Positions 32,853 through 43,014 of a stretch of DNA of 64,000 nt are shown here, piece after piece. The DNA comes from Arcobacter sp. (GTDB lineage Bacteria > Campylobacterota > Campylobacteria > Campylobacterales > Arcobacteraceae), in assembly GCA_020048055.1 (NCBI GenBank), contig JAIFNA010000007.1, positions 62,001 through 126,000 of the forward strand. Direction: 5' to 3'. The notes below the pieces were generated by a model. It was not told the DNA's origin and searched no databases. It saw only the letters and a list, made by a program, of their open reading frames with translations. The first letter of the stretch is position 1; the number at the start of each line of letters is the position of its first letter. A program made the translations under genes and the position numbers.

Positions 32853-32904
32853 AAAAGGAACAGTAGTTGCATTAGCTATATTGTTAAGAAAATGTTAGAA
32901 AAAA

Positions 32905-33002
32905 TCAAGAAAAGCGAATTTATTCGTGTTTTAGGTTTGTCTATTGAAAAGTAGAAATTCAACAATATGTCCATTTAAAATTAGGACAATTTAAAAGGAG
33001 TA
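32905..33002 (+). promoter_or_regulatory. nif leader family copy 3 (before fdxN), compact form
   Basis: Hairpin A is CGAAT/ATTCG (near 32914-32927), the link is TTTTAGGTTTG, and hairpin B is the short TCTA...TAGA (32940-32954). Hairpin C is GTCC (32969-32972) with GGAC (32984-32987), then AAAAGGAG. All modules are present in the same order but with shorter stems than in the nifB, ORF119 and nifT leaders. Confidence 0.7.
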
Positions 33003-33007
33003 ATGAT

Positions 33008-33382
33008 ATGTCGGTATTAATAACAGAAAGTTGCATCAATTGTGATGCTTGTATAGATGAATGCCCAGCGACAGCGATAGTAAGTTCGGATGAAGCACCA
33101 ATAGATAGCGAATATACATATATAAAACCAGAAAATTGCATAGAGTGCGTAGATGCCAGCATTCCAAAATGTGTCGATGTTTGTCCAACAGAGGGTTGTA
33201 TAGTTTGGGATATGCCTTATACTGCTGAATTTGACAGCTATTATTTACAAGGGATGGAAGATGGAAAATATGGAATCAGAGAACATAAGAAAAAAGGTCT
33301 CTTGACTCCAGCTAATCAGCCACGACCATTTAGAGAAGAAGTTAGCATAAATGATAGAGTAAAACATCTAGCTGTAAGTTAA
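33008..33382 (+). CDS. fdxN: 2[4Fe-4S] ferredoxin, FdxN type
   Basis: 124 residues. The first cluster motif is C9-x2-C12-x2-C15-x3-C19 and the second C44-x2-C47-x7-C55-x3-C59. The longer spacing in the second motif is typical of nif-linked FdxN/NifB-associated ferredoxins. The C-terminal ~55 residues ('YYLQGMEDGKYGIREHKKKG') form an extension. It lies between nifE and nifB and probably feeds electrons to NifB or nitrogenase. AAAAGGAG precedes the ATG. Confidence 0.93.
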   Translation: MSVLITESCINCDACIDECPATAIVSSDEAPIDSEYTYIKPENCIECVDASIPKCVDVCPTEGCIVWDMPYTAEFDSYYLQGMEDGKYGIREHKKKGLLTPANQPRPFREEVSINDRVKHLAVS

Positions 33383-33402: not shown

Positions 33403-33548
33403 TAAGTCCTTTTTAAAGGGATGTTTTAAAGGGGAGAAACTGGTTTCTCCCCGTAGGATTTGCTTCTTTAGATGTGGCTTTGCCATATCGAAAAAAGAAG
33501 TCATAAAATAGTAGGTCCCTTTTAAAATGGGACATTTTAAAGGAGTAT
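33403..33548 (+). promoter_or_regulatory. nif leader family copy 4 (before nifB), with duplicated hairpin C
   Basis: Hairpin A is a GGGGAGAAAC...GTTTCTCCCC stem (33431-33452), the link is GTAGGATTT, and hairpin B runs from GCTTCTTT to AAAGAAG with inner GTGGC/GCCAT (33462-33500). Hairpin C is GTCCC (33515-33519) with GGGAC (33529-33533), then AAAGGAG (33539-33545). An extra hairpin-C-like unit, GTCC...GGGA followed by TTTTAAAGGGGAG, lies upstream at 33406-33436. Confidence 0.8.
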
Positions 33549-36204: not shown

Positions 36205-36336
36205 AAGAGTTCAGGAGAAGTAAGAGAAATTCATTTCTCTCTTCAGGGTTTGCTTCTTGAGATGGAATTATTTCCATCGTTAAAAGAAGCAAAGAATTAT
36301 AGGTCCCTTCAAATTTGGGACAAATTTTAAGGAGAA
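36205..36336 (+). promoter_or_regulatory. nif leader family copy 5 (between nifH and ORF119)
   Basis: Hairpin A is AGAGAAAT/ATTTCTCT (36223-36240), and the link is TTCAGGGTTT. Hairpin B is GCTTCTT/AAGAAGC with inner GATGGAA/TTCCATC (36252-36290). Hairpin C is GTCCC (36303-36307) with GGGAC (36317-36321), then AAGGAG (36329-36334). CCTTCAAATTTG and CAAATTTTAAGG can alternatively pair 11 of 12 positions and mask the ribosome site. It is nearly identical to the nifT leader. Confidence 0.82.
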
Positions 36337-36340
36337 CAAG

Positions 36341-36700
36341 ATGTTTGTATGTGGCTACCACTTCCCAGCGAGTGAAGGAAATGATGTAAGTTTTGATAAA
36401 GTTATTGAAAAAGTAAACGAAGGTATTGATGCTACGGGTAAAACTGTAACATTAGCAAGTGAAACAAGAGAAGGTGTTAAGTTAGAAGAGTTATCTGTTC
36501 CAGCTGGTACTTTTTTACATACTGCATTTGTAGATTATTTTACAAATACAGAATGCGCAGCAAAAAATGATTTCAAAATGGTTTATTACACAAATAGATA
36601 CCAAATCAGTGAAATTTCAAAAGCTGTAGATGGTGATGTTACAAAAGATATTTGTAAAAAACTAGATGATATGAATCTTTACAGAGTGTCTGTAAAATAG
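36341..36700 (+). CDS. Unknown protein encoded between nifH and nifD
   Basis: 119 residues; I do not recognise the family. It is soluble and alpha/beta, starting 'MFVCGYHFPASEGNDVSF' and including 'IDATGKTVTLASETREGVKLEELSVPAGTF', 'HTAFVDYFTNTECAAKNDFKMVYYTNRY' and an acidic helical end. It is not a PII (NifI) protein, which is what occupies this place in archaeal nif operons. AAGGAGAACAAG precedes the ATG behind a full leader-family copy. Its position inside the structural operon implies a direct role with nitrogenase. Confidence 0.8.
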   Translation: MFVCGYHFPASEGNDVSFDKVIEKVNEGIDATGKTVTLASETREGVKLEELSVPAGTFLHTAFVDYFTNTECAAKNDFKMVYYTNRYQISEISKAVDGDVTKDICKKLDDMNLYRVSVK

Positions 36701-42869: not shown

Positions 42870-42887
42870 ATTTGGAAACAAGGAATA

Positions 42888-43009
42888 AGAAAGTAAGAGA
42901 AACTCGTTTCTCTCTTTAGGATTTGCTTCTTTAGATGGAATTATTTCCATCGCTAAAAGAAGACATTAAAAACAAGGTCCCTTCAAATTTGGGACAAATT
43001 TTAAGGAGT
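42888..43009 (+). promoter_or_regulatory. nif leader family copy 6 (before nifT)
   Basis: Hairpin A is AGAGAAAC/GTTTCTCT (42896-42913), and the link is CTTTAGGATTT. Hairpin B is CTTCTTTAG/CTAAAAGAAG with inner GATGGAA/TTCCATC (42926-42962). Hairpin C is GTCCC (42977-42981) with GGGAC (42991-42995), then AAGGAG (43003-43008). From hairpin A to the ribosome site it is nearly identical to the copy after nifH, 6.6 kb away. Confidence 0.82.
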
Positions 43010-43014
43010 AAAAA

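Follow-up and report, generated by a model that had tools for sequence, protein, structure and literature searches.

In the expression platforms of translational riboswitches, the Shine-Dalgarno (SD) sequence and an anti-SD strand form alternative structures. The leader element described here resembles these platforms in having mutually exclusive helices, one of which leaves the SD free and one of which buries it, downstream of a conserved folded domain. It differs from them in that its genes do not share a common pathway, in that some genomes carry at least 20 copies and in that part of its module can stand alone. Repeats of the REP and MITE types are likewise similar to the element in their many copies, their tandem runs and their filled and empty sites. 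By contrast, the element is fixed in orientation and position in Arcobacteraceae, is stably associated with particular genes and engages in pairing that depends on the SD. In the same bacterial group, a study of Arcobacter sp. L examined 38 intergenic regions for structured RNA candidates, naming one motif HRC-4 and giving no names to most of the candidates confined to Arcobacter (PMC6429828). No description of the element appeared in passages of that paper, and some of its candidates may overlap with it. Finally, Nus factors and boxA, whose consensus is GYTCTTTAANA, control the translation of suhB (PMC5725501).

We report that a region downstream of nifH in an Arcobacter genome is probably the 3′ end of a repeated family of Arcobacteraceae leader RNAs that acts as a bistable translational switch. 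We infer this action from the conservation of two alternative folds, from their position and from the lack of the AAGG arm in copies remote from start codons. The family is undescribed as far as Rfam and the literature searches reach. At the gathering score, Rfam matched only tRNAs across the whole window; in the leader region, matches at E values up to 5 were at chance level, and 16 element loci had no match. A description of the element was not found in the titles and abstracts of open-licence papers on RNA in Arcobacter and Epsilonproteobacteria.

The element and its distribution

The window, which is the whole stretch of 64,000 nt analyzed, holds a nif cluster encoding a NifB-type radical SAM protein (33552), NifH (35270), a small ORF (36341) and NifT (43015). 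The genes downstream of the small ORF are presumably nifD and nifK, as judged from their sequences. The small ORF itself lies between nifH and nifD, and five other genomes have relatives of it downstream of the element.

The element is a leader RNA of ∼115–125 nt comprising hairpin A, a conserved linker, hairpin B, hairpin C and the SD. Copies in the window were located using a repeat search and BLAST, and those in the rest of the genome and in relatives using DNA searches. A covariance model was built on 26 copies using hairpins A, B and C only, the SD-burying helix being left out. This model identified six copies in the window, each with an E value of 1e-7 or better (Table 1), and 21 matches across the whole source genome at E 0.01. 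A sequence-only reading of the window had placed the same structural alternative in the leaders of nifT and nifB and in a minus-strand copy. All three were recovered: the nifT leader contains the same C module as the leader downstream of nifH, at 42977–43006, the nifB module lies at 33515–33543, and the minus-strand copy (31406–31221) is real and carries an extra hairpin of ∼40 nt within the loop of C. The copies at 32902–33002 (+) and 21414–21561 (+) were absent from that reading's list. The ∼40 nt hairpin, of the form AGGTnYCCT-A-rich...T-rich-AGGCACC or similar, occurs at about the same point of the C loop in four genomes, at the minus-strand copy and at three further loci. This hairpin could represent either an insertion or a subdomain.

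Table 1. Predicted features of the element downstream of nifH, and further copies in the window
Feature	Positions	Strand	Basis
Hairpin A of the copy downstream of nifH	36224..36239	+	two-sided changes in 6/6 pairs (108 relatives)
Conserved unpaired linker, family consensus CTTTAGRRTTTG	36240..36251	+	alignment column counts
Hairpin B, lower stem GCTTCTT/AAGAAGC, upper stem GATGGAA/TTCCATC	36252..36290	+	covariance model, pair counts, folding
Hairpin C, SD-free fold, GTCCC with GGGAC	36303..36321	+	covariance model, pair counts
Alternative SD-burying hairpin, CCTTCAAATTTG + GGA loop + CAAATTTTAAGG	36306..36332	+	arm swaps, mutual information, pair counts
Shine-Dalgarno AAGGAG of the ORF starting at 36341	36329..36334	+	sequence
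ORF after the element, 119 aa, without Pfam or NCBIfam family	36341..36700	+	profile searches
Full copy before nifT (43015)	42885..43010	+	covariance model, 136.2 bits
Full copy before nifB (33552; radical SAM + Nitro_FeMo-Co)	33422..33547	+	covariance model, 117.4 bits
Divergent copy before 2Fe-2S ferredoxin (21566)	21414..21561	+	covariance model, 60.5 bits
Short copy before ORF at 33008, C stem retained	32902..33002	+	covariance model, 48.6 bits
Copy before Nitro_FeMo-Co-domain ORF (31217), extra hairpin in C loop	31221..31406	-	covariance model, 49.1 bits

In a stricter covariance model search, the element occurred in at least 80 of 104 Arcobacteraceae genomes and at least 16 of 20 genera, the maximum being at least 28 copies per genome. 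Across samples drawn from the order and from the phylum, 54 of 398 and 54 of 397 genomes, respectively, had matches, Arcobacteraceae included; weaker matches were found in three families outside Arcobacteraceae. From 180 model matches, we retained 160 distinct elements from 58 genomes. Three loci are on contigs titled as a Helicobacter pylori PMSS1 isolate, a title that is probably wrong for one of them (L203).

The linker is the most conserved stretch of the element and is unpaired in the model; its consensus is matched exactly in 107 of the 160 elements. These properties would suit the binding of a trans-acting sRNA to the linker or to the loop of C, the sequence-only reading having named an sRNA target among its possibilities. 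The two R positions of the linker nevertheless differ among copies, and the comparisons speak neither for nor against such an sRNA, to which we give a very low probability. Pairing of the linker with the CCTT arm was also considered and dropped, as the linker contains AGA instead of AGG in 39 of 108 copies. A small upstream ORF with its start in hairpin B was rejected since, by eye, only some copies have the ATG.

Alternative folds at the Shine-Dalgarno sequence

In the copy downstream of nifH, GGTCCCTTCAAATTTGGGAC occupies positions 36302–36321, as checked against the letters of the window. The sequence-only reading had described two 12-nt arms here, complementary at 11 positions, that bury the SD and compete with a GTCCC/GGGAC stem. 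We found the same 11/12 complementarity around a GGA triloop (36318–36320), with C36310/T36328 as the sole mismatch. The 3′ arm, CAAATTTTAAGG, was correctly placed at 36321–36332, whereas the 5′ arm, CCTTCAAATTTG, had been placed one base off, at 36305–36316, and actually spans 36306–36317. The competing C stem pairs GTCCC at 36303–36307 with GGGAC at 36317–36321. Because CC at 36306–36307 and GGGAC are common to both structures, the C stem and the SD-burying helix are mutually exclusive. In the window, chance would yield an expected 0.00 occurrences of the 20-base module.

To assess the conservation of the two folds, we compared copies across genomes. Pair counts were made on the 108 sequences of alignment A3 alone, the 72 of A2 being left out. 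Mutual information over these 108 sequences brought out helices A and B as well as the variable pair of C. It also recovered most of the SD-burying helix, which the covariance model does not contain. In this helix, 91.1% of cells were paired and 9 of 12 pairs had changes on both sides. Cells with changes on both sides numbered 116 versus 45.3 in shuffles, and the covariation score was 0.230, whereas shuffles gave 0.071 and slid versions no more than 0.117, kinship not having been removed from any of these figures. One column pair (137/204), in the region of the C/T mismatch of the window copy, was unpaired in 38 of the 108 sequences. The C stem was 98.1% paired, and the A and B helices were 97.6–99.1% paired with compensatory change. 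Overall, the A, B, C structure was 98.5% paired, with 631 cells changed on both sides versus 171 in shuffles (kinship not removed).

Arm-swap tests yielded similar results. Of the 160 elements, 17 lacked a match to the C-module regular expression and 3 had modules longer than 36 nt, leaving 140 elements with 88 distinct modules. In these 88 modules, the SD-burying arms paired at −7.10 kcal/mol with their own partners and at −4.33 kcal/mol with swapped partners; none of 10,000 permutations reached the value for own partners. A free-arm pattern that fixes only GTCCC, GGGAC and AAGG, and is therefore independent of model choice, gave 89 matches in 12 genomes, while the reversed pattern gave none. 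Among the 77 distinct matches, the arms again paired far better with their own partners than with swapped ones (0 of 10,000 permutations). The shuffle and swap tests retain column or arm composition and not the tree, such that relatedness among the sequences remains in them. A full C stem together with at least 10 of the 12 SD-helix pairs was present in 80 of the 88 distinct modules. Examples of covarying arms are AAAACT/AGTTTT, TAATTA/TAATTA and AAAAGTGG/CCACTTTT, as well as TTTTTTGATG/CATCAAAAAA, which occurs without A-B before ispH of genome G056. In 75 modules of equal length, G-U pairs numbered 14 and A-C mismatches 9, a comparison of RNA with DNA hairpins that is not decisive.

The support for two folds is comparative, because the folding of single C modules is not significant: these fold no better than shuffles (z −0.46 to −1.45). 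The 163-base stretch at 36218–36380 folds better than shuffles (z −3.05); with the coding sequence included, the predicted fold gives the SD region other partners. Together, the sequence comparisons show three predicted hairpins, A, B and C, and a second helix predicted to pair with the SD, all with compensatory changes. Exclusive folds, one of them SD-burying, were the core of the RNA switch proposed from sequence, and covariation and arm swaps bear them out; that the RNA switches between them is our best reading.

We then calculated the balance of the two folds on 133 distinct stretches, with the SD forced free versus in the helix. At 37 °C, the median difference was −0.1 kcal/mol, with a 10–90% range of −3.8 to +2.0 kcal/mol between copies, and the folds were within 4 kcal/mol of each other in 117 of the 133 modules. 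For truncated transcripts of the copy at 36212, the C fold was predicted until the SD emerges, after which the SD-burying fold was level or slightly better (−44.4 vs −44.1 at 30 °C).

A thermosensor had also been suggested from the sequence. In a translational RNA thermometer, cold would favor the long AT-rich hairpin and warmth the short GC-rich stem, and the median difference does move in this direction, being −1.24 at 15 °C and +0.36 at 42 °C. This shift of about 1.6 kcal/mol is nevertheless small in comparison with the wide spread among copies, the predicted exposure of the SD rises only from 0.24 to 0.34 over 15–50 °C, and A-B would be superfluous in a thermometer. The weak predicted dependence does not favor a strong temperature sensor, and a translational thermometer appears very unlikely.

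Genomic position, inheritance and downstream genes

According to the rule of our script, 151 of the 160 elements have a start codon with a same-strand ORF 3–24 nt after AAGG. Of the nine elements outside this rule, one lies at a contig end, two are internal copies of tandem runs and some others visibly precede start codons whose frames are short. An opposite-strand start was close to the 5′ end in only 2 of the 160 elements. In 11 internal tandem copies, C is retained and none carries AAGG in its arm, one reading TTTTAGG, which indicates that the arm is kept only where it is used as an SD.

Elements upstream of one gene recur across several genomes. Mean identity was 0.747 between elements of the same gene across genomes (154 pairs) and 0.646 between elements within a genome (369 pairs). 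In a nearest-neighbor test from which elements shorter than 100 or longer than 150 nt were left out, the nearest neighbor was an element of the same gene for 60 of the 102 elements having such a partner. As same-gene copies are more alike than same-genome copies, most elements appear to have been inherited in place, and expansion within genomes is not supported as the main source of copies. Gain or loss is visible at some loci. The element was upstream of the HIT-family gene at 6 of 30 loci; it is present in G040, while in close relatives of the same genus (G029, G138, G012, G057 and G050) the site is empty and the two genes are joined directly. Among 16 genomes of one genus, of which the 12 with an ispH start located by the script had their upstream stretches read, the element before ispH is complete in some, partial or reduced to C in others, and missing in the rest; in G056 and G130, the C module occurs without A-B. 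Because some copies have lost A or B yet keep C and the SD, the C/SD switch can apparently stand alone.

These data bear on the possibility that the element is a mobile repeat, scattered by insertion close to genes, which carries the start-site hairpin by chance, any regulation being incidental. The many copies per genome, the tandem copies and the clean contrast between filled and empty sites before the HIT gene are as expected of such a repeat, and in other families A-B occurs within longer repeats and beside rRNA genes, including two copies antisense to 23S. A mobile repeat would be expected in either orientation to genes. In Arcobacteraceae, however, the copies share one orientation and one position at start codons, their sequences follow the gene rather than the genome, and those away from start codons lack the AAGG arm; the antisense copies beside 23S are outside this family. 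Overall, we consider a mobile repeat quite improbable.

The 153 downstream reading frames formed 81 groups, 32 of which were met at least twice, and no common pathway was apparent among them. Recurrent genes included those for P-II, 2Fe-2S ferredoxin, IspH, rubredoxin, HIT, the 119-aa nif ORF, transaldolase and PrpF, as well as acetaldehyde dehydrogenase, ThrC, NifU-like, LepA, HisA and CysK, among others; urease genes are also preceded by the element. NCBIfam names were sought for 30 of the 153 proteins, 29 of which had a match, several of these below the curated cut-off; the nif ORF had none. The other gene names are our assignments, made from the sequences themselves. Nitrogen, nickel and Fe-S genes are frequent downstream in raw counts, from which we claim no enrichment. 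Because many non-nif genes are also preceded by it, the element is not a nif device. The nif-related ligands proposed from sequence (homocitrate, molybdate and Fe) accordingly fit poorly with an element that also precedes ispH, rubredoxin, transaldolase, thrC, hisA, lepA, urease and P-II genes. The variety of the 81 groups likewise disfavors one obvious metabolite as the trigger.

This variety would also be expected if the element were a fixed setter of translation level, in which the folds equilibrate and the balance at each gene sets a constant rate, with no regulatory input. The near-equal energies with their wide spread between copies, and the survival of the C module without A-B before ispH, are in agreement with such a device. 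It leaves unexplained the strict retention of A, B and the linker, and we consider it unlikely.

Hairpins A and B beside rRNA genes and the proposed switch

Outside Arcobacteraceae, A-B occurs without C, upstream of some ORFs and beside rRNA genes. In a set of six loci, A-B lies directly before 16S in G164 and G241, in the spacer before 23S in G164 and, in the antisense direction, at the 23S 3′ end in G241 and G143. The 23S genes of these three genomes are taken to be such from recognition by eye. Because it adjoins rRNA genes, A-B is not solely a translation device. In G145 and G158, the A-B copies, at ten loci, are mostly in longer repeated noncoding stretches on both strands, with no close start codon. 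Together, the antisense copies and these long repeats suggest that A-B spreads as a repeat in the outside families. At another locus (L225, near 1501–1600), stem B has AAAAGGAG as its 3′ strand, a short distance ahead of an ATG, and B alone would therefore bury the SD.

The rRNA context of A-B led us to consider a boxB/boxA module, through which a Nus complex would steer folding or block the SD, as at E. coli suhB, where boxA control of translation is established (PMC5725501). As far as the passages of that paper describe it, the suhB system is similar to the element in its leader position close to the SD and in some relation to rRNA leaders. Consistent with this idea, the element has a hairpin followed by a CTTTA-rich strand, and A-B immediately precedes 16S rRNA in G164 and G241. 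However, the consensus occurs in none of the 160 elements, in which the SD would instead be buried by RNA pairing, and the boxA-like strand is variable and within stem B. Moreover, several Arcobacteraceae 16S leaders, as read by eye, have a boxA-like sequence of their own, GTTCTTTAACA or GATCTTTAAA, and the rRNA leaders of 12 Arcobacteraceae genomes had no R1 match better than E 0.004. A Nus-factor module is thus extremely unlikely. CsrA was considered because of the GGA loop. CsrA (PF02599) was detected in none of the 104 Arcobacteraceae genomes and in 3 of 14 controls, and was ruled out as the regulator since the hosts lack it; some distinct modules also have a GAA triloop.

Our best reading of the sequence comparisons is therefore a new, portable family of translational RNA switches. 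In the proposed mechanism, C would form first during transcription and leave the SD open, corresponding to an ON state. Once the SD strand has emerged, the RNA could rearrange into the long SD-burying hairpin, in which the CCTTnAAA arm of the element would pair with the SD of the following gene to the exclusion of C, corresponding to OFF. The choice between the two would be biased by A-linker-B or by something bound to it, candidate inputs being a metabolite, a protein, an RNA or ribosome traffic. More tentatively, and with appreciable doubt, the element may be a portable cassette whose anti-SD arm captures the SD of any gene and whose A-B reads one global signal, so that dozens of unrelated genes, from nif, urease and hydrogenase genes to those for Fe-S, amino acids and translation, would be tied to one input, while sister families would also employ A-B next to their rRNA genes.

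With its two covarying alternative folds, the C module offers a small, naturally occurring model of a putative bistable switch. If the switch works as proposed, it would constitute a large layer of RNA-based translational control in Arcobacteraceae, bacteria that lack CsrA, and would offer an entry to the coordination of nif, urease, hydrogenase and Fe-S genes in this family.
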